A DNA stretch of 64,000 nucleotides from Agathobacter sp. (GTDB taxonomy: Bacteria; Bacillota; Clostridia; Lachnospirales; Lachnospiraceae). Location of the stretch: contig JALEKN010000014.1 in assembly GCA_022769125.1 (NCBI GenBank), positions 1-64,000 of the forward strand. The letters run 5' to 3'. Of this stretch, positions 11,031 through 49,319 are shown one piece after another; positions within the stretch are counted from its first letter, which is position 1, and every line of letters begins with the position of its first letter. The position numbers and the translations under genes are program-made. Below the pieces are notes generated by a model, which saw only the letters and a list, made by a program, of their open reading frames with translations, was not told where the DNA came from and ran no database searches.

Positions 11031-11036
11031 AAAAGA

Positions 11037-33767: not shown

Positions 33768-34154
33768 ATGGCAGAATGCGGATGCGGAAAAGCAGCGGAA
33801 AACGGTCAGGAAGAATATTTTGGAAAAGAGTGTTGTCATGCGGGTGAGGATATTTTAGATACCAATTTTGGTTATACGCTTTCCATGATCAACGGGAAAT
33901 ACAAGCTGATCATCATGTACTGGCTTGCTTTTCATAGCCCGGTCATGCGTTACAACGAGCTGAAGCGTTGTCTTGGTACGATCTCGCATAAAACACTTAG
34001 CAGCACGTTAAAGGAAATGGAAGCAGATGCGCTGATCATCCGGAAGGAATATCCGCAGATACCGCCGAAGGTAGAGTACAGTTTGTCTGAGCGCGGCAGG
34101 ACATTGATCCCGATTTTGGTATCTATGTGTAAATGGGGTGAAGAACATCGTTAG
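33768..34154 (+). CDS. HxlR-family winged-helix regulator with cysteine-rich N-terminus
   Basis: The 128-residue protein has the HxlR/DUF24 winged helix with NGKYKLIIMYWL, RYNELKRCLGTISHKTLSSTLKEMEADALI and the wing YSLSERGRTLIPIL. Ahead of it is a short extension with CGCG and CC (five cysteines in the first 30 residues), which could bind metal or sense redox state. Several HxlR proteins are redox or electrophile sensors. ATG at 33768 follows GAGAGG by seven bases. It leads the MBL-hemerythrin operon. Confidence 0.85.
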   Translation: MAECGCGKAAENGQEEYFGKECCHAGEDILDTNFGYTLSMINGKYKLIIMYWLAFHSPVMRYNELKRCLGTISHKTLSSTLKEMEADALIIRKEYPQIPPKVEYSLSERGRTLIPILVSMCKWGEEHR

Positions 34155-34171
34155 GAGAAAAGAGGAATAGC

Positions 34172-34984
34172 ATGCGTGCAACAATACTTGTGGACAATCG
34201 GAAAAAGGATGACATACCGGGCGAGTGGGGATTAAGCATCTACATCGAGGCGGACGGGCATACGATTCTGCTGGACACCGGCGCGTCGGAACTTTTTCTG
34301 TCCAATGCGAAGCGGCTTAACCTGCCGATCGACAAAGTGGACGCTGCGGTACTGTCCCATGCACATTACGATCACGCGAACGGAATGCAGGCATTTTTTA
34401 ACGCAAATGGGACTGCACCGTTTTATGTGCGGGAGACGACAGCGGAGAACTGCTATTTTAAGAAATGGTTCATACATAAGTACATCGGGATACCGAAGCA
34501 TATCTTAAGCGAATATCAAGACCGGATCGTGTATGCGAAGGGCGATACGCTGCTGTGGGGTGGAATCTATCTGATCCCGCATAAGATACCGGGGCTTTCG
34601 GAGAGCGGAAAGCGCGAGCGGATGTACCAAAAGCGCAAGGGGCGATGGTATCCGGATGATTTTTCCCATGAGCAGAGTCTGGTAGTCGACACGGAAAAAG
34701 GGCTGGTCATTTTCAATAGCTGCTCGCACGGCGGTGCAGCCAACATCATAAACGAGGTGGCGCAGACATTTCCGGACAAAAAGATTTACGGGCTGGTCGG
34801 GGGCTTTCATCTGTTCAATAAGACCGAGGAAGAGATCCGGGCGCTTGGTATGCAGATAAAGCAGACGGACATTCCGTATGTGTGCACCGGACATTGTACC
34901 GGCGGCAGAGCCTACGCGATCCTAAAGGAAGAGCTGGGAGAGCGCCTGCACGGAATGCAGGTCGGCTTTACAATAGAAGTTTAA
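34172..34984 (+). CDS. metallo-beta-lactamase fold hydrolase
   Basis: The metal-binding HxHxDH motif is intact as SHAHYDHANG, with further ligands in NSCSHGGA and TGHCTGG. The length of 270 residues and the overall plan fit the COG1237 group, annotated as 7,8-dihydropterin-6-methyl phosphate synthase-like, whose reaction is rarely known. It lies 17 bases after the HxlR gene and 14 bases before the hemerythrin gene, with AGGAGAAAAGAGG upstream, so it is the middle gene of an operon that might deal with oxygen or NO. Confidence 0.85.
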   Translation: MRATILVDNRKKDDIPGEWGLSIYIEADGHTILLDTGASELFLSNAKRLNLPIDKVDAAVLSHAHYDHANGMQAFFNANGTAPFYVRETTAENCYFKKWFIHKYIGIPKHILSEYQDRIVYAKGDTLLWGGIYLIPHKIPGLSESGKRERMYQKRKGRWYPDDFSHEQSLVVDTEKGLVIFNSCSHGGAANIINEVAQTFPDKKIYGLVGGFHLFNKTEEEIRALGMQIKQTDIPYVCTGHCTGGRAYAILKEELGERLHGMQVGFTIEV

Positions 34985-34998
34985 AAGGAGAGATAAAA

Positions 34999-35814
34999 AT
35001 GTTTCAGTTTACAGAAGATTGTATGATCGGGATCAACCAGATCGATGAGGAGCATAAGATGTTATTCCAACTGCTGAATGAGGCAGCGGCGGTAGCGGAG
35101 ACAGGCACGCCGGGGATGATCGGGAAGAATCTGCTGCAAAAGCTCGAAGATTATGCGGCAACCCATTTCGCACATGAAGAGGCGTATATGGAGCAGATCA
35201 AAGACCCGGAGCTTGCAAGACAAAAGCAGGAGCACAGACAGTTTGTAGAGAAGGTGGAAAGCTATCAGAACTTTGACTGGGAGAGCGAGCAGGCGGCAGA
35301 GAAGGTTAAGGAGTTGCTTTCTTTTATGGCGAAGTGGCTTTACCATCATATCTTGGGCAGTGATATTATGATCGGAAAGAATGAGGCTTGCGGGCAGGGC
35401 GAGGATGCGTTTGCATTTACGGATCAGTACCGCACCGGCATCGAGCTGATCGATGAGGAGCATCGCAGACTGTTCGAGATCATCCGGCAGACCAACGATG
35501 TCGTCGAGGCACAGTTCCTCCACGATAAGTATGATGAGATCGTGCAGATTTTAAAGGAATTAAAGGATTACACGATCCTGCATTTCCGCGATGAGGAAGA
35601 ATACATGGAGCGCATCGGGTATGAAGGGCTTGCCATGCAGCAGGCAGCACATACCGCATTTGTTGACCGGCTAAACGAGATCAATCTGGATGATGTCGAT
35701 GACAACCAGAAGGAATATCTGGAGGAAATCCTTTCCTTCCTGCTTGGCTGGCTGACCAACCACATCTTAAAGATGGACAAGAAGATCCCGGTGGAGCGGC
35801 CGGCGGATGCATAA
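34999..35814 (+). CDS. tandem bacteriohemerythrin
   Basis: The 271-residue protein has two complete hemerythrin four-helix domains (about residues 10-130 and 140-265). Each shows the di-iron ligands: DEEH, HFAHEEAYME, EHRQF and HHILGSD in the first, and DEEH, HFRDEEEYME, HTAFV and NHILKMD in the second. Hemerythrins bind O2 and may store, sense or scavenge it in anaerobes. Duplication within one chain is less common. AAAGGAGAG lies before the ATG at 34999; an earlier in-frame start lies inside the MBL gene. Confidence 0.92.
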   Translation: MFQFTEDCMIGINQIDEEHKMLFQLLNEAAAVAETGTPGMIGKNLLQKLEDYAATHFAHEEAYMEQIKDPELARQKQEHRQFVEKVESYQNFDWESEQAAEKVKELLSFMAKWLYHHILGSDIMIGKNEACGQGEDAFAFTDQYRTGIELIDEEHRRLFEIIRQTNDVVEAQFLHDKYDEIVQILKELKDYTILHFRDEEEYMERIGYEGLAMQQAAHTAFVDRLNEINLDDVDDNQKEYLEEILSFLLGWLTNHILKMDKKIPVERPADA

Positions 35815-35839
35815 AAATCAAGTGAGATAATTACATAAG

Positions 35840-35857
35840 TGGGCAGACCTGCCCACC
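35840..35857. repeat. perfect palindrome GTGGGCAG-AC-CTGCCCAC
   Basis: An 18-base palindrome with an 8-bp stem follows the hemerythrin gene by 25 bases. No T run follows it, so it is either a weak terminator, an mRNA-stabilising hairpin or an operator for the next gene. Confidence 0.5.
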
Positions 35858-35939
35858 AAAACGAATCCTCCGTATGCTAGGATGGCATTAGGTAACGGGA
35901 GTTGCCGGTGAAATCTTAACAAAAGGAGGATTTGTGCTT

Positions 35940-38117
35940 ATGAAGAAAAGACTTGGTGCACTTATCATGGTATTTACAATGATACTTGGAATTTTTTCCG
36001 GAATCGGAGTAGACATGGTGTGGGCGGATGAAGGCGGACAGGACGGAAACGATGCAGCTGTTACCGGACTGGCAGTGGCATATCTGTTTGACTGGGATGA
36101 GGATAACAAGCCGTCCCTGCGGGAGGATGCTGTGTGGGAAAAAGAGACAGAGACCGGTTTGGGAGAGTGTATTTTATATGCAAAGAACCTAAGTGATGCG
36201 GGAGAACCGGAGGGCGATCCGATCCGCGCGGATAAACTTACGCTTGTTTATTGTGGTGCAGACGGAACGGATACGCCACAGGAGGGTATTGGTACGGTTA
36301 CAGCTCTTGAGACAGATGGTGATTACTTATCCCTTCAGGTTACGAAGCTTGGCGTGTATCAGCTTTATGTGACGGGTCATACTGGCGATGTAGTCACCAT
36401 TAAGGCTGCGTACCGGAATTTTGAGTTCTGTACATCACAGACACTTAATGAAGATGGTATTTTAAATCACTATGACCTTACTGATGCCGACAACAGGCTC
36501 TATCTGATCGAGAGCGCACCAAAGGAGGTCACATGGGATAAGACGGATATTTGGAATGTATCTGTGGATGGAAAGCCGGTGGACGAGGCAGATTACGGAA
36601 CCTATTTTAGCAGGACGAAGGTTGCAGACGATGAGAACTCAGTAACCTATGAGATCACATTTGTAAAAGGCTCGTTCCACTGGATTGATATGGAAGTATC
36701 CGGAAACGGGACGTATTCGGATGATGGATCATGGGACACAAGCATCTGGCTGTCTGTAAACTATGACGGAATCATCCCGGGCTTTGGGGCTGCGGCTGAC
36801 ATTGTGTGGAGTGAGGATGGAATCCCATCTGTTGTGGAGGGCGGATTCTATGCGACAGAACAGTGGGCATATCTAAGCCAGGGCATGGAACTTGATTTTG
36901 CAGATGTGGATGCAGACGGAACTGTTACAAAAAGCTATTCGGCAGATGAATTGACTGCAACGGCAATAGACGGAGACGGAACTGCCACGATCAGCCGAAC
37001 AAAAGGAACTCCGGTATCGGTAAGCTTTGATAAGCTTGGAGATTACCGCATTGCTCCGGCAGATGGCAGCAGTGAAGGGGTTGTGATCCATGTCTCTTAC
37101 TGCCCGCTGGGTGTGTATACGGAAAATGTGCGGAGTGAGGAAACAGCATGGCATTCCAACAAGGTTCTGTACAGCAGTAATAATGAGGACACGATCCTGT
37201 ATGCGATTCCGACGGATGATAAGGCGATGACCATCGGAAACGTCAGATTCTTTGTACAGCCGGTAGATGAAGAGGAAACGGATGACATAGCAGATTATTA
37301 TAGTGTCACGGAAATCGGAGACGGCAGCTACAAGCTTGTCATCAATGGCAGCAATCGCAAGAATTTTAATCTGGAGATAAAAGCAGATGTAAGTGATGGC
37401 GAAAACAGTTGGGAATTTTTCTATGAAATGCGGCGTGAATATATACAGGAGGATAAACTTCTTGTAACGGATTATATCGATTTTACGGAGGATGGGACGC
37501 CGTCCTTAAATAGTGAAGCTGCCCTTTTAACTTATACGGGAGCGCGCGTGACGGGAGAGCACTATACGCTGTACCTTGCACTATGCGACAGCAGCAACAA
37601 AGAAAAAGCGGCAGTGAGCGCCGAGCAGCTTGTAATGCGGGATGAAGCCGGAAATGAGACCGGCACGATCACCGCAAATAAGAAAAACAGCAGATTCGTT
37701 GATGTGACCTTCCCGAAGGAAGGCTCTTACACGCTGGCACTCAGAACTGACGAGAATAACCGTGTGTGGGTGATCGCAGGATACCCGGAGCTGAGCTTCT
37801 ATACAGATAACACGATGTCAAAGGAAGCCTATGTGGAGGAGCTGCAGGTGTCAAAGGCAGACTCAGACAGGAAAGTTCTCTATATGCTGCAGCGTGTGAT
37901 GGATGAGGTAACGATAAAGAACCTGAAGCTTCAGGCAGTAGTCTACGATGCGGCAACGGATAAGGCAACGTACTTTGACGCAGGAACATATTTTACTTAT
38001 GAAAATATTCAGCACCATCGAGGGTGTGGCACGGTATCAGATCACTCTTGCAGAGAGAACGGCACTCCCGGAAAAGTTCTGGCTCCGTGTGACCGGAATC
38101 CTATGTGGAGAAGGTGA
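35940..38117 (+). CDS. secreted repeat protein, N-terminal part (frameshifted)
   Basis: A signal peptide (residues 1-30, ending VWADEGG) is followed by three related segments of about 200-230 residues, each starting near DxxDEDxKPSL or DFTEDGTPSL and closing with YFxxxxVxxxxxxVxYEIT. The last repeat breaks near 38005; the reading frame then runs 110 bases into nonsense. The remainder continues in the +1 frame at 37948-39045. Either the gene is a recent pseudogene, the frame is variable, or there is a sequence error. AGGAGG lies ten bases before ATG 35940. Confidence 0.7.
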   Translation: MKKRLGALIMVFTMILGIFSGIGVDMVWADEGGQDGNDAAVTGLAVAYLFDWDEDNKPSLREDAVWEKETETGLGECILYAKNLSDAGEPEGDPIRADKLTLVYCGADGTDTPQEGIGTVTALETDGDYLSLQVTKLGVYQLYVTGHTGDVVTIKAAYRNFEFCTSQTLNEDGILNHYDLTDADNRLYLIESAPKEVTWDKTDIWNVSVDGKPVDEADYGTYFSRTKVADDENSVTYEITFVKGSFHWIDMEVSGNGTYSDDGSWDTSIWLSVNYDGIIPGFGAAADIVWSEDGIPSVVEGGFYATEQWAYLSQGMELDFADVDADGTVTKSYSADELTATAIDGDGTATISRTKGTPVSVSFDKLGDYRIAPADGSSEGVVIHVSYCPLGVYTENVRSEETAWHSNKVLYSSNNEDTILYAIPTDDKAMTIGNVRFFVQPVDEEETDDIADYYSVTEIGDGSYKLVINGSNRKNFNLEIKADVSDGENSWEFFYEMRREYIQEDKLLVTDYIDFTEDGTPSLNSEAALLTYTGARVTGEHYTLYLALCDSSNKEKAAVSAEQLVMRDEAGNETGTITANKKNSRFVDVTFPKEGSYTLALRTDENNRVWVIAGYPELSFYTDNTMSKEAYVEELQVSKADSDRKVLYMLQRVMDEVTIKNLKLQAVVYDAATDKATYFDAGTYFTYENIQHHRGCGTVSDHSCRENGTPGKVLAPCDRNPMWRR

Positions 38118-39045
38118 GGAGATCAAGCTGGAGGAGGCTGTTGAGATCACGGTCGAGCAGGGGGAGAGCGTGACACCAGCTCCAACACCAGCACCGACAC
38201 CAACTCCGGCGGAAACCACAGAGACGGATAACACAACCAAGGACACGACAACCACGGAGGTCAAAAAAGAGACGGTAAAGAATGACTCCGGCAAAAAGGT
38301 AACGGTTGAAACAACGGTTGTGAAGAATGAGGCGGGCAAAGTATTATCGTCCACTACGATCTCTGAGATACCAAAGGCTGCAAAGAATACAACCGCAACC
38401 GTGACCGTAAAAAAGAATGCAAAGGGTAAGACGACAAGTGCGGAGGCGGTGATTGAGAATACTGTAAAGAAGGGCAAGAAAGACACGGTAAAAACCACGA
38501 TTTCTGCAAAGGTAGTAAAGCAGGTTAGCGAGGCAGCGGATACCACGAAGCTGAATATCACACAGACGGTAAAGGATACAAAGGGCAAAGTTCTGTATAC
38601 GATAGAGACCAACGCAAAGAATCTTGTTGCAGGAAAGAAGCTGACATTGGTAAAGATTGTGGACGGAAAGCAGATTCTTGTGACAAAGCCTGTTACCGTT
38701 TCTAAGAGCGGCAATGTAAGTGTAAATGCCGGGACAGGTGAATACAAGCTTTTGAGCGCGAGCGAGGCAAAGGAACTTCAGAAGCAGATCCTTAAAACCG
38801 TAAAACCGGAGCAGAAGGAGCTTGCTGTGGAGAAGGGCGAAAAGGCAAAAGTTAAGCTGAGCAGTAAGCTGGATATGAATAATGTGGCAAGTGTAACGTA
38901 CAATTGCTCTGACACATCCATTGCAAAGGTTGACAAAAATGGAAAGGTAACAACGAAGAAGAAGGGTACTGCAACGATCACGATGACCGTCACATTAAAT
39001 GATGGAAGCACGAAGCGCATTACCACAACAATCACAGTAAAGTAA
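37948..39045 (+). CDS. secreted repeat protein, C-terminal part (frameshifted)
   Basis: This frame carries the end of the third repeat (STIEGVARYQITLAER, which aligns with DENSVTYEITFVKG in the first repeat), a TPAPTPAPTPTP linker, a lysine/threonine-rich beta region and a C-terminal BIG2-like Ig domain (SVTYNCSDTSIAKVDKNGKV). No LPXTG anchor is seen, so it was probably secreted or wall-associated. The true join lies between about 38000 and 38020. It has no start codon of its own with a clear site, apart from a possible ATG at 38000. Confidence 0.65.
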   Translation: MRQRIRQRTLTQEHILLMKIFSTIEGVARYQITLAERTALPEKFWLRVTGILCGEGEEIKLEEAVEITVEQGESVTPAPTPAPTPTPAETTETDNTTKDTTTTEVKKETVKNDSGKKVTVETTVVKNEAGKVLSSTTISEIPKAAKNTTATVTVKKNAKGKTTSAEAVIENTVKKGKKDTVKTTISAKVVKQVSEAADTTKLNITQTVKDTKGKVLYTIETNAKNLVAGKKLTLVKIVDGKQILVTKPVTVSKSGNVSVNAGTGEYKLLSASEAKELQKQILKTVKPEQKELAVEKGEKAKVKLSSKLDMNNVASVTYNCSDTSIAKVDKNGKVTTKKKGTATITMTVTLNDGSTKRITTTITVK

Positions 39046-39062
39046 ATAGATGAACTTAAAAA

Positions 39063-39094
39063 TCCCCGCAGGCTGGATGCCTGCGGGGTATTTG
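39063..39094 (+). terminator. hairpin after secreted repeat gene
   Basis: CCCCGCAGGC pairs with GCCTGCGGGG around TGGAT. Only TATTT follows, so termination may be partial. The island starts just after it. Confidence 0.6.
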
Positions 39095-39160
39095 AATGGA
39101 CTTATCGCGGGTGGTGTCAAGGGATAGCTATATAAGAAAAAATAAAATGAAAGAATATTA

Positions 39161-39189
39161 ATTGACGTAAGAATACAAATGTAGTAAGA
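39161..39189 (+). promoter_or_regulatory. candidate promoter of the radical SAM/ABC island
   Basis: TTGACG (39161-39166) and TAAGAA (39184-39189) are spaced by 17 bases; the -10 box is weak. The AT-rich gap 39095-39274 holds no other gene. Confidence 0.35.
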
Positions 39190-39274
39190 ATAAAATGTAA
39201 TATATAATCATACTCACAATGGTTACATAAATAAGGCGAATAATTGTAAGAAATAGGATGGGGAAAATAGACGG

Positions 39275-40912
39275 TTGGATTATAATAACGCAGAGGATGT
39301 TAAACAGCCTTTTCAATTATCATTAAACAAACTGGTATTTGGGATACGCAGCGCGATTGTTGTAGTGCTGCTGTTTATATCAAGTATGGCTAATGCCGCG
39401 AGTTGTCTCAAACTGGCAGATATGATTGATTACATACAAGAAAAGGATATGAAGGCGCTGATCATTTCTTTAGTCTTTTTTGCAGGATTGCTTTTCGTTT
39501 CCGCAGTATGCAATATAGTTGCATGGCGAATGATTTTTTCGCTACTGTATTATAAAACAATCACATTAAAGAATACTATTTTTAAAAGTGATATTTCAGA
39601 TACGAAAGCTGCGGAAACGCGGATGGCAGACTACAATACGAATATTGATTTGGTGTATGACTCCATATATCTTGTGAGATGGAATATCTTAAATCTTGTT
39701 CTTACTGTAATATGTACGATTGCGGCGATTGTCAGTATTGATCCGATTATTTTGCCGGTAGCGATTCTTTCCAGCTTACTTCCGTTTGCGGTTCCTTTCA
39801 TAGGAAAGAAAAAAAGAGAAAAGGTTAGTGTGAATTTCTCTCAGCAGGTCAATGAATATCAGAATTATGTAATCGACAGGATGAGGGGAAAAAGAGTCTT
39901 TCAGCGATATCAGGTGACAACGGCCGTTTCATTGGATCACATCGAACGCAGCAGCCTATCGGAAAAGAGCCGCAAAGAGTACAGAGAAGTTAAAAATTTT
40001 ACGCAGATTTTTAATTCTACAGTAGGTTCGGCCGCTTTTCTGCCGGTTATCGGAGTTGGCGGGTATTTGGCATTTCTCGGAAGAATAGGAACCGGAAGTG
40101 TTATTGCCGTGATCAATCTGATGAATTATCTGGTCGATCCGGTGGTAGCGATTGTCCAGTTAATCAACGCAATGCAACAGGCGAAGCCTATAGAAAAGAA
40201 ACTTTTAAAAGACCGGTGCGATCAAAAGGAAGCTTCAGGCTCATTGGAATTAATTCATTATCATTTAAGATTACAGGACATCAGTTTTTCTTATCCTGAA
40301 TCCACCCGATCTGTTATTGATAATTTAAATTTCGAATTTGAGGAAAATAAAAAATATCTTATAACGGGAGAAAGCGGAGCGGGAAAATCTACTTTAGCAA
40401 AGCTGCTGATTAAGGATATTACAGTAAATAGCGGAGAAATTTTTCTGGAAAATGAACCATACCGGATGATTGACAGAAACCAGTTACTTAATGTGGTCCG
40501 ATATGTTGAGCAGACCCCATACATTTTTGAAGGGACTCTCTTTGATAATATAGCTTTTTACCGGGATAATATAACCGAAGAAGACGTAAACAACGTAATA
40601 AGAAGATTTGGATTAGAAAACATACCGACGGATAAGGTGCTTTCGGAGGAAACGCTTTCCGGAGGGGAAAAGCAGCGTATATCACTTGCAAGATCTGTGC
40701 TGGGAAATACACCGATTATGATTTTTGACGAGCCTACAGCTGCACTTGATGCCGGTATGACATATGCGGTTATGAACGAATTGGTTCATATCCCATCAAT
40801 GATTATTGTTATCAGTCATGAGAACAGCCATAAAGTATTGGAACTGTTCGATGCTGTGTTGCCACTAGATGAAAGACGAGGGAGGAATGATTATGAAAAA
40901 CAAAATTTCTGA
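39275..40912 (+). CDS. ABC transporter, fused permease and ATPase
   Basis: The 545-residue half-transporter has six hydrophobic segments (residues 20-310) and a nucleotide-binding domain with Walker A GESGAGKST, signature LSGGEKQR and Walker B IMIFDEPTAALD. There is no N-terminal C39 peptidase domain, so if it exports a peptide, leader removal must occur elsewhere. The start is TTG with GGATGGGG 11 bases upstream, which is weak. It leads the AT-rich island, with the small protein starting inside its end. Confidence 0.85.
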   Translation: MDYNNAEDVKQPFQLSLNKLVFGIRSAIVVVLLFISSMANAASCLKLADMIDYIQEKDMKALIISLVFFAGLLFVSAVCNIVAWRMIFSLLYYKTITLKNTIFKSDISDTKAAETRMADYNTNIDLVYDSIYLVRWNILNLVLTVICTIAAIVSIDPIILPVAILSSLLPFAVPFIGKKKREKVSVNFSQQVNEYQNYVIDRMRGKRVFQRYQVTTAVSLDHIERSSLSEKSRKEYREVKNFTQIFNSTVGSAAFLPVIGVGGYLAFLGRIGTGSVIAVINLMNYLVDPVVAIVQLINAMQQAKPIEKKLLKDRCDQKEASGSLELIHYHLRLQDISFSYPESTRSVIDNLNFEFEENKKYLITGESGAGKSTLAKLLIKDITVNSGEIFLENEPYRMIDRNQLLNVVRYVEQTPYIFEGTLFDNIAFYRDNITEEDVNNVIRRFGLENIPTDKVLSEETLSGGEKQRISLARSVLGNTPIMIFDEPTAALDAGMTYAVMNELVHIPSMIIVISHENSHKVLELFDAVLPLDERRGRNDYEKQNF

Positions 40913-41153
40913 TTTCTTTAGAGCGTATAAAATGGAAATCAACAGATGTGAGTCTGCACTTGAGGTGTATTCGCTGTTTACTGAAAAATATACTGAGTCT
41001 GGCTGTACGATGGATGAATTCTTTGATGAAATACGGGAATTGGACCAAGAAAGTGAGTTTCAGTTCTTGGACAATAGTGTAGTTGGAGCGGGGGTTAAGA
41101 TTGGCAATATTTATATTCAGTTGAAACAATGTGCGGAAGCAAGTAGAATTTGA
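40893..41153 (+). CDS. 86-residue small protein, candidate RiPP precursor
   Basis: I do not recognise the family. It is acidic and helical in the first 55 residues (ALEVYSLFTEKY, MDEFFDEIREL), then has DNSVVGAG and a short tail VKIGNIYIQLKQCAEAS with one cysteine. The helical part resembles a Nif11-like leader in pattern, and the GAG step could be a cleavage site; both are inference. GGGAGG lies seven bases before ATG 40893, inside the end of the transporter gene. Its TGA overlaps the radical SAM start. It could instead be an accessory binding protein. Confidence 0.55.
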   Translation: MKNKISDFFRAYKMEINRCESALEVYSLFTEKYTESGCTMDEFFDEIRELDQESEFQFLDNSVVGAGVKIGNIYIQLKQCAEASRI

Positions 41154-42193
41154 TGGAAAAACTGGACATTTTATATGTTGCTGACATATGGCTTACGAAG
41201 GAAGTTGACAGTAACTATATTGGACATAGAATTTTAGACACTATCTGCAGAGAAAATGGTTTTTTGTCAAAGGTGTTTTCTCCACAGGATATTGCAAAGA
41301 ATATCGATGACGGAGAATTATCACCTGAAGCGGCGATTGAACGGATTGCTGCAGATTTAATAAGTATTCATCCCAGAATATATTCTTTTTATTGTGTTTG
41401 TGATTCCTTTCCGCTTACGTGTTTAGTTGCGAAGAAGGTTAAGAAATCAAATGAAGATTCAATTATTGTTATGGCGGGACCGCAAGCATCAGCATTAAGA
41501 AATGAAATTGCGTATTCACTCCCCTATGTTGATTTTGTTGCATATTCTGAGGGGGAAAAGATGATTGTGGACTTCCTAAATGCTGTGATTTCAGGAAGTC
41601 CTCGTATAGAGGACGTCAGCGGAATTACGTATAAGGATAACACAGGAAGTGTTGTCACACATGAACCGCCTCGGGTTCTTAATGAAAAAGAATTGGAGAC
41701 GTCCATAAGGATAGAAACAAAAAAACTTCATTCTGAGGATACGGAATTTAGCATAGAAGGTGGAAGAGGCTGTCCATTTAACTGTACTTTCTGTATTACT
41801 TCAAAATATTGGGGACGTCAGCATCGTCTGATTGCGCCTAGAACGTTGATTGATATTATTCTGGAACATGTTGGAGATGACTGCAAACTCCCGATTAATA
41901 TTGTTCATGACCATTTTACGGCGAATAGAACATTTATAACAGATTTTTCTAATGAATTAATAGCCCGTGGGAATCCGATTAAATGGTCGTGTTCTTCAAG
42001 GATTGATTCTCTTGATAGGGCACTTATAGATTTACTTCAAAAGTCAAACTGCGTGTCCATTTATTTTGGAATAGAGACTGGTTCTGCAGTATTGCAAAAG
42101 AAAATTAATAAGAATTTGGATATTACTGGGCTTATTGATACAATTCAGTATCTTTCTGAAAAAAAATTGAAACAACCACGTCATTTATTATAG
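41153..42193 (+). CDS. B12-binding-type radical SAM enzyme, N-terminal part
   Basis: An N-terminal Rossmann-like cobalamin-binding region (about residues 1-170, with AGPQASALRNEIAYS and VDFVAYSEGE) precedes the radical SAM core with CPFNCTFC (CxxxCxxC) and a FGIETGS segment. Reading stops 27 bases after an A8 tract. One extra A, or a -1 slip on A_AAA_AAA, continues the frame into TTTSFIIGFPEET, a motif diagnostic of this family, and on to 42984. The start ATG overlaps the previous TGA. The proposed role is methylation or epimerisation of a peptide. Confidence 0.75.
   Translation: MEKLDILYVADIWLTKEVDSNYIGHRILDTICRENGFLSKVFSPQDIAKNIDDGELSPEAAIERIAADLISIHPRIYSFYCVCDSFPLTCLVAKKVKKSNEDSIIVMAGPQASALRNEIAYSLPYVDFVAYSEGEKMIVDFLNAVISGSPRIEDVSGITYKDNTGSVVTHEPPRVLNEKELETSIRIETKKLHSEDTEFSIEGGRGCPFNCTFCITSKYWGRQHRLIAPRTLIDIILEHVGDDCKLPINIVHDHFTANRTFITDFSNELIARGNPIKWSCSSRIDSLDRALIDLLQKSNCVSIYFGIETGSAVLQKKINKNLDITGLIDTIQYLSEKKLKQPRHLL
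42159..42166 (+). promoter_or_regulatory. A8 tract forming an A_AAA_AAA slippery heptamer
   Basis: The zero-frame codons around the tract are GAA AAA AAA TTG, so the heptamer at 42160-42166 is in the correct register for -1 slippage. The -1 frame is open from here to 42984 and completes the radical SAM family pattern. No stimulating structure was checked. Confidence 0.5.
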
Positions 42194-42231
42194 GATTTCC
42201 TGAGGAGACATTAACAGATTTTAAGGAAACA

Positions 42232-42984
42232 ATGCATTTGATTCAGAAATTGTGGTTTGTCAGAAATAATTATATCCAGTTGCATATGCTGGAGTTTTAC
42301 CCTAAAACGCAGGAAACGGATAGAAATATACAAACTCTCTTTTTTGACAGAAAATCGACGTTGTACCTCGGAAATAAACGGTCACAATTATGCGAAGAAT
42401 CCATTCAGCTTATTGAGTCAAGTGAAGAACTTTTTTCATCTTACTACAATATGTTCACAGACATAAGAAAACGCTATGGAAGTATGCCTTTGTTCTTTGA
42501 GATAATTTCCAATGCACGTATGTTTTACAGATCTTCATTGGAATTGTTGTTTCGAAAGAGAAACATTATTGAGGTATATGAGCAGAATAAAGCACTAATA
42601 GAAAATGAAGTGATGGCTGAAATAAGAGGATTTGATGATGCATATCTCAGGTATAAGGAGGTTGATATTGCAAAGAGGGTACTGATGCAATGTTGCAAAA
42701 ACGATTTCGAATTAAAGTGTTTTGTATACATCGAATCATTGATGCGTATGCTTGCATTACAGGAGAAAATATTTATTGTAATAAATCCGAAATTTGATCT
42801 ATTGCAGATGAGAAGGCTGAGTATGTATTTCCCAACTGAGAAAGAGTATATTTTGCATTCATACAATCATAAATGTCACATTATTACGGTTGATGAAAAA
42901 AGCAGGTTAGATAGTTTGAGAATTGTTTTGATAAAGAATGGCTTTTACGAAATGAGCGAGGAGAATTTTAAGCGTGAATTATAA
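42232..42984 (+). CDS. B12-binding-type radical SAM enzyme, C-terminal part
   Basis: This frame continues the previous gene; it opens before 42232, with TTTSFIIGFPEETLTDF encoded at about 42171-42225 and no good start codon with a binding site. The later 200 residues are helical with no known motif and may be a substrate-binding domain. Joined, the enzyme would be near 610 residues. Its end overlaps the next radical SAM gene by 11 bases, implying coupled translation. Alone it would be non-functional, so either slippage or a sequencing error is likely. Confidence 0.65.
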   Translation: MHLIQKLWFVRNNYIQLHMLEFYPKTQETDRNIQTLFFDRKSTLYLGNKRSQLCEESIQLIESSEELFSSYYNMFTDIRKRYGSMPLFFEIISNARMFYRSSLELLFRKRNIIEVYEQNKALIENEVMAEIRGFDDAYLRYKEVDIAKRVLMQCCKNDFELKCFVYIESLMRMLALQEKIFIVINPKFDLLQMRRLSMYFPTEKEYILHSYNHKCHIITVDEKSRLDSLRIVLIKNGFYEMSEENFKREL

Positions 42985-43933
42985 TTCTTTAGCAATTGAA
43001 ATTACACGGAAATGCTCTTTGAATTGCGCACATTGTTGCTATTCTGGCGGAATCAACACGAAAGCGGATATTGATATAGAAAAATTTTCTTCGTTTGTAT
43101 CTGGGCTGACAGATGATAAAAACATCATGGCCATTTCATTAACGGGTGGAGAACCTTTTTATTGTTTCAATTTATTGAAAGCGTGTGTAGAGGTGGCTCA
43201 TAATAACAAGTTTCAGGTTGGTGTAGTAACTAGCGGCGTCTGGGCATCCAGCTATAAGCATGCAATTGAACGCATTCAGGAGCTTAAAAATTGCGGTCTC
43301 AATATGATTACAGTCAGTTTGGATGAATACCATCTGAAATATGTAAAAAAAGACTGTATTCTAAATTTGGCAAAAGCTGCCAGAATCTGTAAGGTCGAGA
43401 TATCTATTCAGGTTGCCGTTTTAAATAATAGCGAACTCGGTTGTATTTTCAACGGACTTCAGCAGATTCTGCCATATATTCATGTTGAGTTTATAAAAAC
43501 ATATCCGGTAGGAAATGCTGTTAATATTAACAAAGAATATTTTATTACGGATGTTTCAGTAAGCAATGCATTTTGCGAAAAAGGAAGCTCCTATTTTGTC
43601 TCCTCTGAATTTGAATTATTTCCGTGTTGTTCCCCATTGGCGCATACATGCTGCTTTAATTTGGGAATAGTTAGTGAAAAAAAAGGTCTGGAAATTCGGA
43701 ATTTACTTGAAAGAAATAAAACATTAGCAGTAATCAGACATTTTGGTTTTGCACCCTATCAGGATGTACTGGAAGAAGCATTTTCAAAAGGAACACGTGT
43801 GGTATCAGCCTGTGAGCTATGCAGTTATTTGTTTTCAGAAAAAAATTATATAAAAACGTTAATACAAACCAATCTATTTATAGAGAACTATGTTTGTAAT
43901 GAACATTTAGATTTGTATAGTAGGATTTTATAA
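42974..43933 (+). CDS. radical SAM enzyme with cysteine-rich C-terminal region
   Basis: The 319-residue protein begins with a radical SAM motif CSLNCAHC (CxxxCxxC) in its first 25 residues, and SLTGGEPF follows. Its C-terminal 120 residues contain FCEKG, PCCSP, TCCFN and ACELC, enough cysteines for extra iron-sulfur clusters as in SPASM or twitch domains. Such enzymes crosslink or oxidise ribosomal peptides. GTG at 42974 follows GAGGAG by nine bases. It is the last gene of the island. Confidence 0.8.
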   Translation: MNYNSLAIEITRKCSLNCAHCCYSGGINTKADIDIEKFSSFVSGLTDDKNIMAISLTGGEPFYCFNLLKACVEVAHNNKFQVGVVTSGVWASSYKHAIERIQELKNCGLNMITVSLDEYHLKYVKKDCILNLAKAARICKVEISIQVAVLNNSELGCIFNGLQQILPYIHVEFIKTYPVGNAVNINKEYFITDVSVSNAFCEKGSSYFVSSEFELFPCCSPLAHTCCFNLGIVSEKKGLEIRNLLERNKTLAVIRHFGFAPYQDVLEEAFSKGTRVVSACELCSYLFSEKNYIKTLIQTNLFIENYVCNEHLDLYSRIL

Positions 43934-44091
43934 TATGCTAAGGACAATAGAGACTGGAAGTTTACGAAATGCCTAGAGACTATATGAATTCGAAGCACAA
44001 GACTTTATCCTAGCCAAAATACATTTCGTTTGCCGGAAAAGATTATAATGAATTTATATTTGTATAGGTAGTCTGTAATATAGGGAAGAGA

Positions 44092-44120
44092 TTGCAAGAT
44101 GGGCAGCAGTATGGTACACT
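44092..44120 (+). promoter_or_regulatory. promoter of the NCS2 permease
   Basis: TTGCAA (44092-44097) and TACACT (44115-44120) are spaced by 17 bases. The gap 43934-44213 also holds an ACGAAATG/CATTTCGT dyad and the hairpin at 44150; no gene is seen in it. Confidence 0.6.
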
Positions 44121-44149
44121 TAGAAAAATAAGTTGTCCTGCGCTGATTT

Positions 44150-44180
44150 GAGCGGAGATGAATCATCTCTGCTCATTTTG
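44150..44180 (+). terminator. hairpin in the leader of the NCS2 permease
   Basis: GAGCGGAGAT pairs with ATCTCTGCTC around GAATC (one G-T), followed by ATTTT. It lies between promoter and start codon, so it may attenuate the gene. I did not find a full purine riboswitch. Confidence 0.4.
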
Positions 44181-44213
44181 CGTGTGGATGAAATCACAGG
44201 AGGAGTCAATAAT

Positions 44214-45581
44214 ATGTTGGAGAAAATGTTTAAGCTGCGTGAAAACAACACGACAGTAAAGACGGAGATTATGGCGGGTATTACGACCTTCATGACGATG
44301 GCGTATATTCTTGCCGTGAATCCGAATGTTTTAAGTGCATCCGGTATGGACAGAGGCGCTGTGTTTACCGCAACGGTACTGGCATCCTTTTTAGGAACAG
44401 CCTGTATGGCACTGTTTGCAAACTATCCGTTTGCGCTGGCACCGGGAATGGGACTGAATGCGTATTTTGCATACACGGTTGTAATCGGTATGGGTTATCC
44501 GTGGCAGGCAGCGTTAGCGGCTGTTTTTGTGGAAGGTGTAATTTTTATTTTACTTTCCCTATTTAATGTGCGCGAAGCTATTTTTAATTCCATTCCGTCA
44601 AATCTTAAGAAAGCGGTTTCTGTAGGTATCGGTTTCTTTATCGCATTTATCGGACTGCAGAATGCAAAAATCGTGGTAGGCGGAGCTACATTGGTGGAGC
44701 TGTTTTCACTTGACGCGGTGGAAGGCGCTACCATGCATGACGCCGGCATCTGCGTGATCCTTGCGATCATCGGCGTATTTTTGACCGGTATCCTTGTCAT
44801 CAAGAATGTAAAGGGAAATATTCTCTGGGGAATTTTAGGAACATGGATTCTTGGTATCATCTGCCAGTTCACCGGACTTTATATGCCGAATCCGGAGATC
44901 GGATATTACAGTCTCCTTCCGGATTTTTCCTCCGGATTATCTGTGCCGAGCATTGCTCCGATCTTTATGAAGATGAATTTTACAGCTATTCCGATTGCTG
45001 AATTTGTTGTGATCGTGTTTGCATTTTTATTTGTGGATATGTTTGATACACTTGGAACCTTGATTGGAGTTGCGACCAAGGCGGGAATGCTTGACGAGGA
45101 AGGTAAGCTTCCGAACATCAAGGGCGCTTTGATGGCAGACGCGGTTGCTACAACTGCCGGTGCTGCACTTGGTACTTCCACAACCACAACTTTTGTAGAG
45201 AGTGCATCCGGCGTCAGCGAGGGTGGTAGAACCGGTCTTACTTCTATCACGACCGCAATCCTGTTTTTACTTGCGCTGCTGCTTTCACCGATCTTCCTTG
45301 CCATTCCGTCATTTGCAACGGCTCCGGCTCTGATCATCGTAGGATTCTACATGGTAAATCAGGTAGGACTGATTGATTTCTCTGATTATAGCGAGGGAAT
45401 CCCGGCATTTATCTGCATCGGCGCAATGCCATTCTTTTACAGCATCTCAGAGGGTATCTCCATGGGAGTTATCTCTTATGTTGTATTAAACCTCGTAACC
45501 GGAAAGGCAAAGGAAAAGAAGATCAGCCCGATCATGTATATACTTGCGGTGCTGTTCCTGGCGAAATACTTCTTGCTGTAG
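44214..45581 (+). CDS. NCS2-family purine/xanthine permease
   Basis: The 455-residue permease has about 12 hydrophobic segments and the AzgA/PbuG-like motifs TEIMAGITTFMTMAYILAVNP, APGMGLNAYFAY and FVDMFDTLGTLIGVA. Guanine, hypoxanthine or adenine is the probable substrate. The ATG at 44214 follows AGGAGGAG by nine bases; an in-frame start at 44133 lies before the hairpin. The stop codon abuts the first base of repeat array A. Confidence 0.92.
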   Translation: MLEKMFKLRENNTTVKTEIMAGITTFMTMAYILAVNPNVLSASGMDRGAVFTATVLASFLGTACMALFANYPFALAPGMGLNAYFAYTVVIGMGYPWQAALAAVFVEGVIFILLSLFNVREAIFNSIPSNLKKAVSVGIGFFIAFIGLQNAKIVVGGATLVELFSLDAVEGATMHDAGICVILAIIGVFLTGILVIKNVKGNILWGILGTWILGIICQFTGLYMPNPEIGYYSLLPDFSSGLSVPSIAPIFMKMNFTAIPIAEFVVIVFAFLFVDMFDTLGTLIGVATKAGMLDEEGKLPNIKGALMADAVATTAGAALGTSTTTTFVESASGVSEGGRTGLTSITTAILFLLALLLSPIFLAIPSFATAPALIIVGFYMVNQVGLIDFSDYSEGIPAFICIGAMPFFYSISEGISMGVISYVVLNLVTGKAKEKKISPIMYILAVLFLAKYFLL

Positions 45582-45660
45582 GGACGTTCCTTTTGACACG
45601 GGAAGAGCCCATTGACACGAGGAGTGCCCATTGACATAGGGAGCGCCCATTGACACATAG
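45581..45660 (+). repeat. 19-bp repeat array A (forward)
   Basis: The array begins GGGACGTTCCTTTTGACAC at the stop codon of the NCS2 gene, then TTGACA recurs at 45593, 45612, 45631 and 45650, an exact 19-base period. The unit is roughly TTGACACNNNNAGCGCCCA. Units two to four differ mainly in the middle four bases. Confidence 0.85.
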
Positions 45661-45709
45661 AAAAGTCCGTCACAATGGTGATCGGGCGGCAGAATGCAAG
45701 GAGAGAATG

Positions 45710-46540
45710 ATGCAACCGGAGCAGGCACAAAAAGTAGAGGACAATTCAGTTGTAACGATTACGGAATATGACGATCCGAGGCTGGATATTTTTACCAGAC
45801 TGTCGGAGGTGCAGCTTCTGCGGTATCGAGAACCGGAACTGGGGATTTTTCTTGCGGAAAGTCCGAAGGTGATCGAGCGGGCGATGGATGCAGGGTATGA
45901 ACCTGTCGCTTTTCTCACCGAAAAGTCAGCGTTTCGCGAGGATGAGCAGCGGCTGTGTGCGCGTTTCCCCAAAATCCCGGTCTATGTGGCAGAAACCGAG
46001 GTCTTTGAACAGATGCGCGGATTTCAGCTTACGAGAGGAATGCTATGTGCGATGAACCGCAAGCGTCTGCCGTCTGTTGCAGAAGTATGCGCAAAGGCGC
46101 GGCGCATCGCGGTGCTTTGGGACGTTGTCAATCCAACCAATGTGGGAGCGATCATCCGTTCCGCTGCGGCACTCGGCATGGATGGTGTGATATGTACCAC
46201 AGACGGAAGTGATCCACTTTACCGGCGCGCGATCCGTGTCAGCATGGGAACCGTTTTTCAGATTCCGTGGACGATCGTGGACGAGACCTGTATGCGGGAG
46301 CTAAAAGAGCTTGGCTTTTGTACGGTTGCGATGGCGCTTCAAGAGGATTCTGTAAGTCTGACCGATCCGGTGTTCGCGGAAAAAGAGCGGCTGGCCGTTG
46401 TGCTTGGAACAGAGGGCGATGGCCTGCCACGGGATGTTATTAACCAATGTGATTACACTGTCCGCATCCCGATGAAACACGGTGTAGATTCCCTCAACGT
46501 GGCGGCAGCGAGCGCGGTCGCCTTCTGGGAATTGCAGTAG
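45710..46540 (+). CDS. TrmH/SpoU-family RNA methyltransferase
   Basis: The 276-residue protein has an N-terminal substrate-binding domain and the SPOUT core with NPTNVGAIIRSAAALG, VLGTEGDGLP and IPMKHGVDSLNVAAASAV. It probably 2'-O-methylates a ribose in rRNA or tRNA; the target is unknown. ATG at 45710 follows AAGGAG by six bases. Its stop codon is also directly next to a repeat array (B). Confidence 0.9.
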   Translation: MQPEQAQKVEDNSVVTITEYDDPRLDIFTRLSEVQLLRYREPELGIFLAESPKVIERAMDAGYEPVAFLTEKSAFREDEQRLCARFPKIPVYVAETEVFEQMRGFQLTRGMLCAMNRKRLPSVAEVCAKARRIAVLWDVVNPTNVGAIIRSAAALGMDGVICTTDGSDPLYRRAIRVSMGTVFQIPWTIVDETCMRELKELGFCTVAMALQEDSVSLTDPVFAEKERLAVVLGTEGDGLPRDVINQCDYTVRIPMKHGVDSLNVAAASAVAFWELQ

Positions 46541-46624
46541 GGACGATCCTTTTGACACGCACAGCGCCCATTGGCATGAGAAAGGCTTAATGGCATGATG
46601 AGCGCGCCCAATGGCACAATAGCG
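46541..46624 (+). repeat. 19-bp repeat array B (forward, degenerate)
   Basis: GGACGATCCTTTTGACAC starts at the TrmH stop codon. Units with TTGACA, TTGGCA, ATGGCA and ATGGCA follow at 46552, 46571, 46590 and 46611 (19, 19, 21 bases). It has more changes than arrays A or D and looks older. Confidence 0.75.
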
Positions 46625-46668
46625 TTCACATATTCAAGCATGAGAATAACTGTATAATGAAAGAAAAG

Positions 46669-46710
46669 AAAGCCAGTCCAGCAATGAACAAATACCGGGC
46701 TGGCTTTTTT
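46669..46710. terminator. terminator between convergent genes
   Basis: AAGCCAG pairs with CTGGCTT, with further CC/GG pairs, and ends in TTTTTTT. The A-rich left side allows function on both strands. Confidence 0.8.
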
Positions 46711-46733
46711 TGTACCATAATCGAAATAGATAA

Positions 46734-48095
46734 CTATTCCTGAATTTCTGCTAGTGCCTTTTTGAATTGGAAGGTAAACAGGATGGAGGTGAAGGTTACC
46801 GCAATAACATCTGCTATCGGCTCCGCCAGATACACACCCATTGTCGGATCGGACAAAAGGTGTGGGGTGATATAGATCAGTGGAAGGAGCAGTACAAACT
46901 TGCGGACAACCGCTACCACGATAGAATTTACGGCTTTTCCAAGTGAAGTAAATGTTATCTGGCAGGCAATCTGGATGCCGAACAAGAATAAGCCGCCGAG
47001 ATAAATCCGGAGCATCGGGGCGGTAAATGCGATCAGCTCTGCGTCAGGCGTAAAAATGCTTACAAACACGGTAGGGAAAAGCTGTATAGCTGCCCAGAGC
47101 GTGATCGAGTAGGTAAGGCTTGCAATCAGAAGCAGGCGGAACGTCTTTTTGACGCGGCCTGCATTTTTCGCTCCATAATTGTAGCTGGCGATTGGCTGAG
47201 AGCCCTGTCCGATTCCTTGCAGCGGGAGCATGGCAAACTGCATGACACTTGTGAGAATTGTCATGGCGCCAACCGCAATGTCTCCGCCGTAGCGGAGCAG
47301 GGAGGAATTGAAGCAGACGGTTATAACGCTTTCGCTTGCCTGCATGATAAAGGTGGCAAGTCCAAGTGCAACGCAGGGTAAAATGACCGGGGCTTCGAGG
47401 CGCATATATTTTTTGCGGAGATGTAGCTGCGTCTTTTTCCCACAGAGGAATGCTACCACCCAGATCGTAGAGATGGACTGCGAAATGATGGTTGCAAGTG
47501 CGGCACCCTTTACGCCCATGTGAAAACCAAAGATAAACAGCGGATCGAGGGTGATGTTGCAGACCGCACCGATGAGGACGGACACCATAGAAATCGTCGT
47601 GAAGCCCTGCGCGGTGATGAAGGTATTCATGCCGAGCGTCAACTGCACGAACAGCGTTCCGATCGCATAAATGCGCATGTAATCAGTGGCGTAGGTAATG
47701 GTGTTTTCGCTGGCACCAAAAGCGAGCAGCAGATTTTCACTCCAGAGCAGTAAAACTGCAGTCAGGATAAATGAGATGACAATCTGGAGGATGAAGCAGT
47801 TGCCTAATATTTTTTCTGCGGAATCCAAGTCCTGCTTACCCATCGAAATGGATGCTCTCGGCGCACCGCCGGAACCGACTAAGGCGGCGAACGCGGAGAC
47901 GATCATAATGATCGGCATGCAAACGCCAACTCCGGTAAGCGCGAGGCTGCCCTCACCGGGAATATGTCCGATGTAGATTCGGTCTACGATGTTGTAGAGC
48001 ATGTTGATAAGCTGCGCGATCACAGTCGGGATGGAAAGCTTAAGCAGGAGCTTTCCGATGGGCTCGGTCCCTAAAAAATCTTTATTGTTTTGCAT
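46734..48095 (-). CDS. MATE-family efflux transporter
   Basis: The 453-residue protein has 12 hydrophobic segments with the family motif IAQLINMLYNIVDRIYIGHIPGEG. It differs from the other MATE gene at 26272. AAAGGAG precedes the ATG at 48095. A longer frame running to 48233 passes through repeat array C and is not a real N-terminus. Substrate unknown. Confidence 0.9.
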   Translation of the reverse strand: MQNNKDFLGTEPIGKLLLKLSIPTVIAQLINMLYNIVDRIYIGHIPGEGSLALTGVGVCMPIIMIVSAFAALVGSGGAPRASISMGKQDLDSAEKILGNCFILQIVISFILTAVLLLWSENLLLAFGASENTITYATDYMRIYAIGTLFVQLTLGMNTFITAQGFTTISMVSVLIGAVCNITLDPLFIFGFHMGVKGAALATIISQSISTIWVVAFLCGKKTQLHLRKKYMRLEAPVILPCVALGLATFIMQASESVITVCFNSSLLRYGGDIAVGAMTILTSVMQFAMLPLQGIGQGSQPIASYNYGAKNAGRVKKTFRLLLIASLTYSITLWAAIQLFPTVFVSIFTPDAELIAFTAPMLRIYLGGLFLFGIQIACQITFTSLGKAVNSIVVAVVRKFVLLLPLIYITPHLLSDPTMGVYLAEPIADVIAVTFTSILFTFQFKKALAEIQE

Positions 48096-48173
48096 GGAAA
48101 AATCTCCTTTGTAGGTTGCTGATTGTAACCCAACTATTATAAGGCAGAAGATTTTGGTTTGCAAGGTGGAAGT

Positions 48174-48237
48174 GGGGACGTTCCTTTTGACACGCGAAGC
48201 GCCCAATGACACACGGAGCGCCCTTTGGCACAAGAAG
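48174..48237 (+). repeat. 19-bp repeat array C (forward)
   Basis: GGGGACGTTCCTT is followed by units with TTGACA (48187), ATGACA (48206) and TTGGCA (48225), each 19 bases apart. It ends three bases before the transposase stop codon. Confidence 0.85.
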
Positions 48238-48240
48238 TGT

Positions 48241-49008
48241 TTAGGTATTTATGATGGTTCGCTGGACGATTCCGCGAGGCGTTCCGGTTAGACGGTTTAG
48301 CTGTCTTATGGATAATCCTTTTTGGTGCAAAAGAACAAGATACTTGTTGCGGTCGGATAAAGATAGTTTTTGAAAATCGGTTACGGTGTTGCAATTGCAA
48401 TTTTCCTCAATAATACTTTGAGCAACATCATCCGGCAGGCGAATTTTGATCTTATGAATATCAATACAATCATCAGAGTGGACATCAATATGCGATTCAA
48501 AAAAGTGATTTGGAGAGTCAAACAACCCAAGAATATCTTCGGTATCGGTCAGATCAGTAACGCCATTCTGATATTCATAAAAACTGCTCCAGGGATAACT
48601 GCTTCCTGGTGCTTTTTCAAGTCCGGCTTTTGTGGGATTATAATGAATGTAGCGAATGACGGTAAGTAGATAACTGACATTTTCAACCGGTTCACTGTGG
48701 TATCTGCCATCCTGCAAAAAACCGGTGCGCTGGTACTTGTGGTTGAACCAACCGGCATAAGTTGTATTAATAGGGCGAAAAATGGATTCCAGCGTGAACT
48801 CCGCCGAATGTTGAATAAGAAGATGTACATGATTTGACATTAAGCAATAGGCATAGATTTGAAAGTGGAATTTTTCCTTATAGTATCTGAGAATATCCAG
48901 ATATTTCAAATAGTCCTTTTGCTCCTCAAAAAGCAGCTGCCTGTCAGCCCCTTTGATAACGATGTGGTATGTTCGAGTTGATGATTTTTTTCTGGCGTGT
49001 CGTGGCAA
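48241..49008 (-). CDS. REP-associated tyrosine transposase (RAYT, IS200-like)
   Basis: The 255-residue Y1 transposase has the HUH motif HVH at residues 60-62 in MSNHVHLL and the family signature VIRYIHYNPTKAGL at 117-130. Tyr113 is a plausible nucleophile. A C-terminal helical region, LSIRQLNRLTGTPRGIVQR, looks like a helix-turn-helix. RAYTs move or maintain REP-type palindromic repeats. The start is TTG with AAGGAGG eight bases upstream. The gene appears intact. Confidence 0.88.
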   Translation of the reverse strand: MPRHARKKSSTRTYHIVIKGADRQLLFEEQKDYLKYLDILRYYKEKFHFQIYAYCLMSNHVHLLIQHSAEFTLESIFRPINTTYAGWFNHKYQRTGFLQDGRYHSEPVENVSYLLTVIRYIHYNPTKAGLEKAPGSSYPWSSFYEYQNGVTDLTDTEDILGLFDSPNHFFESHIDVHSDDCIDIHKIKIRLPDDVAQSIIEENCNCNTVTDFQKLSLSDRNKYLVLLHQKGLSIRQLNRLTGTPRGIVQRTIINT

Positions 49009-49191
49009 TAAAAGATCCTCCTTGCAAAATTTGTTTAATTGTTTTAAAAAGGGAATGGTGGGTGAAACCCCGCGAATAATTCAAATGGATGATGACACAG
49101 ATGAATTATAATACTATAATATATATTTTATAATAGTTATGAAAAAAGTAAATAGGAAAAAGTATACACTTGTGAATCGCAAGAATACTCG

Positions 49192-49305
49192 AACCAAAGG
49201 GCGCTCCATGCGTCAAAGGGCGATGCATGTGCCAAAGAGCGCTCTACGTGTCATCGGGCGGTGCGTGTGTCAAAGGGCGCTGCACATGTCAAAAGGAACG
49301 TCCCC
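49192..49305 (-). repeat. 19-bp repeat array D (reverse)
   Basis: Six units are seen on the reverse strand at an exact 19-base period (49192, 49211, 49230, 49249, 49268, 49287), with the cap GGAACGTCCCC at the right. The gap 49009-49319 otherwise contains AT-rich DNA with no gene. The array ends 14 bases before the YfhO start. Confidence 0.9.
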
Positions 49306-49319
49306 ACGAAAGGAATAGC

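Follow-up and report, generated by a model that had tools for sequence, protein, structure and literature searches.

Several described kinds of ribosomally synthesised and post-translationally modified peptide (RiPP) provide the background for the locus considered here. In the epipeptides (YydF/EpeX, encoded by yydFGHIJ, equivalent to epeXEPAB), the radical S-adenosylmethionine (SAM) epimerase is YydG/EpeE, and the accessible parts of the literature describe for epimerases of this type a single outcome, the introduction of two D-residues into a peptide that is plain in other respects. Cys223 of EpeE is the proposed hydrogen donor (accessible text of PMC5682303). In the aminopyruvatides (ApyA/ApyD), a class defined by an MNIO enzyme, the product of ApyD is β-methyltyrosine according to the accessible text of PMC10635010. 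In polytheonamide-type proteusins, the epimerase PoyD acts together with the C-methylases PoyB and PoyC, and the available part of one review (PMC8326336) finds no significant homology between the EpeE-kind and the proteusin epimerases. The present analysis concerns a 64,000-nucleotide stretch of Agathobacter sp. DNA (assembly GCA_022769125.1, contig JALEKN010000014.1, positions 1 to 64,000 of the forward strand; hereafter the window), in which a four-gene island at 39275–43933 carries relatives of both YydG and ApyD beside an 86-residue open reading frame (ORF). The island represents a real and recurrent type of RiPP cluster, in which known enzyme kinds come together on a core without a name in any of the libraries searched. 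With modest confidence, we favour the reading that it is a small RiPP gene cluster whose precursor, P0001, has a core that is epimerised by the YydG-type enzyme P0003, C-methylated by a B12-type radical SAM enzyme if this is whole, and exported.

The island and its counterparts in other genomes

The four coding units between 39275 and 43933 run in one direction, all on the forward strand, and encode an ATP-binding cassette (ABC) exporter, the 86-residue ORF, a B12-type radical SAM enzyme and a second radical SAM enzyme. The small ORF (40893–41153) overlaps the end of the exporter gene by 20 nucleotides, the ATG of the B12-type gene at 41153 shares its A with the preceding TGA in a TGATG junction, and the second radical SAM gene, from a GTG at 42974 to 43933, overlaps the frame before it. 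An original prediction, made from the letters of the window, had proposed four tightly coupled genes, including one for an 86-residue protein, in DNA clearly more AT-rich than its flanks. The small ORF, the overlaps and the TGATG junction are as described there, but the B12-type enzyme is not encoded by a single ORF. The composition also agrees, with a GC content of 0.364 in the island compared with 0.474 upstream (31000–39045) and 0.469 downstream (44209–52000); four of 594 island-length windows are as low in GC, and all four overlap the island.

At three loci, L174, L175 and L159, in three genomes of other genera from another family of the same class, both enzymes recur next to an exporter and small ORFs whose ends share a core motif with P0001, which supports the RiPP pattern recognised in the original prediction. 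L174 (genome G983) and L175 (G984) are 98.7% identical over the cluster and contain, in a row, two small ORFs, a B12-type enzyme of 611 residues in one frame, an epimerase and an exporter. L159 (G765), from a different genus of the same family (f55), contains a B12-type enzyme, two epimerases, a 44-residue ORF and an exporter, and its B12-type gene is interrupted by a transposase gene (helix-turn-helix and integrase-core matches), presumably of the IS30 kind. Identity between window and L174 is 35% for the epimerase and 34% for the exporter (511 aligned positions); the corresponding values for L159 are 28% and 32% for its two epimerases, 29% for the exporter and 33% for the B12-type enzyme. 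At L174 the cluster (7900–12650) has a GC content of 0.261 compared with 0.37 in the preceding DNA, an AT-richness hinting at horizontal transfer of this cluster too.

The motif common to P0001 and the small ORFs of L174, L175 and L159 is [VI][KS][IV]G[NS]hYh, and it stands near the C-terminal ends of P0001 (SVVGAGVKIGNIYIQLKQCAEASRI), the two L174 ORFs (DVQCGIKIGSLYLNV and IDNNVSIGSFYIEK) and the L159 ORF (EVAAGVKVGNVYVDVA). Gly71 and Tyr74 of P0001 are invariant in the alignment of these sequences (A5). From alignments A2 and A5, we propose a leader comprising residues 1–67 (40893–41093), with a presumed boundary after VVGAG, followed by a core of some 19 residues, 68–86 (41094–41150; VKIGNIYIQLKQCAEASRI), which includes the conserved VKIGNIYI. 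With residues 58–86 of P0001 as the query, a small ORF ranks best of the 79 ORFs in L174 and best of the 86 in L159, and none of 200 shuffled tails reached the small-ORF score at either locus. Pairwise BLASTP of P0001 with the L174 small ORFs gave E values of 2e-4 for the first and 0.056 for the second. Among the 12,771 distinct ORFs with 30 residues or more in the loci compared, five have the strict motif, all five being precursors of these clusters; a looser form adds two unrelated ORFs, and one L175 ORF (ASIGSFYI) lies outside the strict form. Of 213 loci, six contain the degenerate DNA form, and each of the six is a fragment of either the window or the G765 cluster. Because the motif was derived from these very sequences, the shuffle test is the stronger control.

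These comparisons indicate that P0001 is very probably the RiPP precursor of the cluster. A different role, as a small recognition or regulatory protein for both enzymes, could account for the lack of a match to any known leader family and of a GG motif, and a low-confidence single-sequence model of P0001 (mean pLDDT, the predicted local distance difference test score, 66.2), which we take as a hint only, has helices to residue 50 and strands over 56–76, across the proposed core. We regard this role as very improbable in view of the conserved part of the small ORFs being their C-terminal end, with a variable preceding part (44 to 86 residues in total), the tandem of two such ORFs in L174, and the GG-type precursors that adjoin the same enzymes at three further loci, L040, L041 and L014. 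The original prediction would have been weakened by homologues of the small protein away from radical SAM genes. None was found, P0001 having been searched directly in its own genome and in the plasmid collection (no match in the latter), and its homologues having been reached via the enzymes, a route that may overlook homologues located elsewhere. A VV-G-x-G epimerase target motif, common to P0001 and short peptides of loci L015 and L016, was considered and dropped, VVGAG being taken instead as the end of the leader, since the conserved part in L159 and L174 lies after VVGAG.

The enzymes compared with described systems

P0003 (42974–43933, GTG start) matches 43 NCBIfam families, the best being the YydG epimerase model TIGR04078 (E 3.4e-39). 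Against PDB sequences at a threshold of 0.001, three distinct matches were obtained, all to EpeE/YydG (8ai1–8ai6; E 7e-25 to 9e-24). The cysteines of the CxxxCxxC radical SAM motif, Cys14, Cys18 and Cys21, are invariant in an alignment of 13 relatives, as are Cys201, Cys218, Cys219, Cys280 and Cys283. Four of these, Cys201, Cys218, Cys280 and Cys283, may be ligands to a second 4Fe-4S cluster. The PCCSP segment of P0003 aligns with that of EpeE in a HMMER alignment, Cys219 being the second cysteine; if the second cysteine of the EpeE segment is Cys223, as judged with an offset of 25 in the chain numbering, Cys219 would be the counterpart of the proposed hydrogen donor. A structure model of P0003 had a mean pLDDT of 49.9 and was not used, and a search of the contigs of the genome returned no relative.

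The B12-type enzyme is encoded in two frames. The first (41153–42193) has as its best NCBIfam match the ApyD model NF050148 (E 1.9e-41), as has the L174 homologue, and the remainder (42160–42984), in the -1 frame, aligns to residues 346–609 of that homologue (E 1.7e-19). The break lies at a run of eight A (42159–42166), as judged by sequence and phase. Both pieces thus align to one intact 611-residue protein, the first frame with 40% identity, and the gene as a whole amounts to about 610 codons. The original prediction had found no precursor or enzyme of a class it could name; by sequence, both enzymes can now be placed as relatives of YydG and ApyD, not filed as those equivalogs, and for P0001 the statement holds.

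The exporter (39275–40912) combines a membrane part and an ATPase in one chain (Pfam ABC_tran, E 2.8e-29; ABC_membrane, E 0.014). Its true start is uncertain, the TTG at 39275 being the furthest upstream candidate. In agreement with the original prediction of an exporter without peptidase, the Pfam search gave no Peptidase_C39 match in this protein.

As for the epipeptides, the island has an epimerase related to YydG/EpeE with matching cysteines, and a Val/Ile-rich core. Unlike these systems, its precursor has 86 residues and is, by eye, unlike the YydF-family peptides P0004 and P0005 of loci L026 and L027, no YydH/EpeP-like peptidase is present among the ORFs of 39–44.2 kb, the exporter is one fused ABC protein instead of a separate ATPase and permease, and a B12-type radical SAM enzyme is added. 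The aminopyruvatides share with the island a Tyr in the core and the enzyme to which its B12-type protein is closest, ApyD; the island enzyme is, however, far under the ApyD equivalog cut-off, and the island ORFs gave no MNIO, P450 or methyltransferase match. With the polytheonamide-type proteusins the island would share the logic of one core that is both epimerised and C-methylated, but its epimerase is of the EpeE kind (PoyD itself being outside the comparison), its core is short, and P0001 has no match to the NHLP leader model TIGR03793. The layout of P0001 is similar by eye to that of Nif11-leader RiPPs, although neither TIGR03798 nor PF07862 hits P0001 at E values up to 1. Among sister clusters, TIGR03798 matches one precursor of locus L044 above its cut-off, and a second L044 precursor, that of L014 and two of the three of L045 below it.

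Proposed pathway and the frame break

In the pathway that we propose, P0001 would be synthesised with some 67 leader residues ahead of a core of roughly 19. At one or more Val/Ile positions in this core, P0003 would remove the C-alpha hydrogen, and Cys219 would give a hydrogen back to yield D-residues. Where it is made whole, the B12-type enzyme would C-methylate the core, with Tyr74, invariant in the related precursors, as the first candidate site for a β-methylation by analogy with ApyD. The leader would be removed by a protease encoded outside the island and the product exported by the ABC protein, to act perhaps as an antimicrobial or a signal. A weak clue to Tyr methylation is that the seven clusters with both enzymes (the window, L174, L175, L159, L040, L041 and L014) each have at least one small ORF with an aromatic core residue, Tyr in six of them and Phe in one.

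A number of observations weigh against this pathway. P0003 scores 135 bits with TIGR04078, for which the equivalog cut-off is 300, and the ApyD model scores 142 bits for the first frame in the window and 202 for the intact L174 enzyme against a cut-off of 750. Asp210 of EpeE (a numbering that we inferred, with another residue in one PDB sequence) aligns with Ser206 of P0003, so that details of the active site may differ. P0001 itself matches no precursor family in Pfam or NCBIfam (the latter at E values up to 1). Against the P0001 tail, the second of the L174 small ORFs comes third, under the shuffled mean, and the tail finds nothing in L040, L041 and L014, where 185, 141 and 83 of 200 shuffles did as well. 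A leader peptidase is not apparent among the island genes, and a C39 peptidase could not be detected in the 92.9% complete assembly of the genome. The match to the B12-binding family PF02310 is 19.1 bits in the window (cut-off 32.1; E 0.0012), and the intact L175 enzyme has no Pfam B12-binding match at 0.001; the L014 enzyme has a clear one (39.5 bits). The use of cobalamin by the window enzyme is therefore suggested by its likeness to ApyD-type enzymes. The second small ORF of L014 (50 residues, core VAPILGPIK) has no aromatic residue, and neither do two of the three Nif11-like precursor cores of L082, a locus with an ApyD-like enzyme and a weak epimerase-profile match, with no YydG-type neighbour. 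The weak B12-binding match and the aromatic-free cores of L082 and L014 lower our confidence in this pathway, and in the wider proposal of a new class discussed below.

Also on this side is that the B12-type gene is broken in two of the three lineages with this core, by the frameshift in the window and by the transposase gene in L159, so that the product may be epimerised only, with the C-methylation step lost in these two. A cluster in decay, with a dead B12-type enzyme and an epimerised peptide as the only product, or none, is a substantial alternative that we place somewhat short of an even chance. The adjoining surface-protein gene, which also appears frameshifted, is in keeping with decay. 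However, the -1 frame runs without interruption between 42193 and its stop codon at 42984, for which base composition gives a chance of about 6e-11, and a remainder open for so long has been selected until recently, or still is, so that any decay would be recent. Furthermore, the frames of precursor, epimerase and exporter are intact, and the B12-type gene is whole in L174 and L175.

A sequencing or assembly error in the homopolymer, with a fully functional cluster, is less likely than decay, and on balance unlikely. The location of the break inside the A8 run, the near-identical length of the whole gene and its L174 counterpart, and the second apparently frameshifted gene in the window would fit an error, but the second frameshift is not at a homopolymer, and the remaining long genes of the window are unbroken by eye in the ORF layout. 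A third explanation is programmed -1 frameshifting or transcript slippage that gives rise to short and long enzyme forms. The heptamer A AAA AAA is a classical slippery site, its phase here suits a -1 slip, and the remainder sits in the -1 frame. This explanation is nevertheless improbable, as the homologues in L174, L040, L041 and L014 are in one continuous frame; no search for a stimulatory structure was made.

Distribution of the enzyme pair and its meaning

The two enzyme kinds, YydG-type epimerase and ApyD-like, also occur together in clusters whose cores and leaders differ: L040 and L041, both in genome G380, and L014 in G127, each with a GG-type precursor between or beside the two enzymes and with a core different from that of P0001. 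The L040 leader ends in VAGG and is claimed by no precursor model (best NF038167, E 0.011), the L041 precursor has an NHLP leader (TIGR03793, 55.2 bits; cut-off 50.9), and that of L014 a Nif11-like leader (E 0.001, below the cut-off). In L041 (6520–11372), the NHLP-leader precursor, YydG-type epimerase and ApyD-like enzyme are accompanied by a third radical SAM protein of 448 residues, an arrangement that is proteusin-like with another kind of epimerase. At L045 (551–5739), two YydG-type epimerases accompany a B12-type radical SAM enzyme of a different sort; the three precursors there are of the GG type, one of them matches Nif11 (8e-5), and their Val/Gly/Ala-rich cores are reminiscent of polytheonamide-type peptides. 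In L160 (6891–11942), and similarly in L162 (7157–12086), where the epimerase gene looks broken (186 residues), a YydG-type epimerase gene is followed by a LanM-like protein (DUF4135 and LANC_like) and a Ser/Thr/Cys-rich small ORF of 61–64 residues, suggesting that a radical SAM epimerase belongs to a lanthipeptide cluster here. L161 (4085–9785) and L164 (4427–10127) contain runs of adjacent radical SAM genes with three strong YydG-type matches, and no precursor was recognised there.

In a tree of 27 epimerases, those of the window and L174 are sisters (support 100/97). The seven rows with ApyD-like neighbours need two changes on this tree compared with a shuffled mean of 6.3, and none of 500 shuffles was as low; 10 of its 24 inner branches are unresolved, and L161 was scored as lacking an ApyD-like neighbour despite a weakly matching one (108 bits) at a distance of about 3 kb. 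Counting the window's own genome each time, and with overlapping genome samples, P0003-like matches were obtained in 8 of 250 genomes of the family and 2 of 62 of the genus, matches to the YydG model in 7 of 295 of the order, and matches to epimerase profile A1 at 1e-25 in 22 of 391 of the class. The B12-type enzyme was found in one of the 62 genus genomes, its own, and not in the other 61, many of which are incomplete (30 of the 62 reach a rated completeness of 90% with contamination no higher than 5%). Its profile, A4, matched 4 of 130 genomes in the family of G765 and 1 of 38 in that of G380 at 1e-70, and 2 of 398 genomes of the phylum at 1e-80, one being the window's own. Among a set of 80 loci, the epimerase profile gave weak matches (best 55 bits), and at least ten of these loci have strong ApyD-like enzymes, which shows that the ApyD-like family is wider than this pairing.

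Searches of mobile elements with the L174 enzymes gave no phage match to the B12-type enzyme at 1e-20, and no IMG/VR match to the epimerase; four IMG/VR loci match the B12-type profile. Nineteen plasmid records match the B12-type enzyme, none over 80% of its length, and four of them were inspected. On the rhizobial plasmids L199 (4505–8936) and L201 (4604–9002), two adjacent radical SAM genes, one of them B12-type, stand with diaminopimelate decarboxylase or alanine racemase genes; with such neighbours these look like a different system, and they were rejected as instances of the present one. There is no gene under the match in plasmid L202, and the L200 record is unannotated.

Around the island, the upstream neighbour is a secreted surface-protein gene (35934–39045) whose end matches Big_2 and, weakly, Rib; it is apparently split into two overlapping frames near 37950–38120 in a join region without a homopolymer. 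A terminator-like hairpin (39063–39088, forward strand), read by eye without a scan, lies between this gene and the island, and no second precursor was recognised by eye in the gaps 39046–39274 and 43934–44200. A neighbouring permease gene is present in 34 of 62 genomes of the same genus, the window's own included. In the seven permease regions compared with the window, by eye from gene layout, the surroundings differ from those in the window and mostly from each other, and no empty site could therefore be demonstrated. Further downstream, a Y1_Tnp (IS200-like) transposase gene (48241–49008; Pfam, E 3.3e-15) is surrounded by four copies of an 18-base word on either strand (45581, 48175, 49287 and 51902), possibly REP-like elements with their transposase. 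A second AT-rich stretch at 56257–58742 (GC 0.35–0.36) encodes two adjoining secreted-looking proteins.

Beyond the island itself, we tentatively propose, at a level of belief just below that given to decay of the cluster, a new RiPP class in which an EpeE-type epimerase and an ApyD-like B12-radical SAM enzyme act on one core, [VI][KS][IV]G[NS]hYh, so that one short strand would bear both D-residues and a C-methylated Tyr; the enzyme pair would have been kept while leaders (its own type, Nif11-like and NHLP) and cores were swapped. Judged by titles and the beginnings of abstracts, none of the open-access articles among the matches listed describes an EpeE-type epimerase paired with a B12-type enzyme. 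If the recurrent pairing is true, EpeE-type epimerases would serve multi-step pathways as well, and the core would offer a short substrate for studying the order of epimerisation and C-methylation. The Nif11-like and NHLP leaders of the sister clusters point to movement of the enzyme pair from one leader type to another, a matter relevant to the origin of proteusin-like chemistry.

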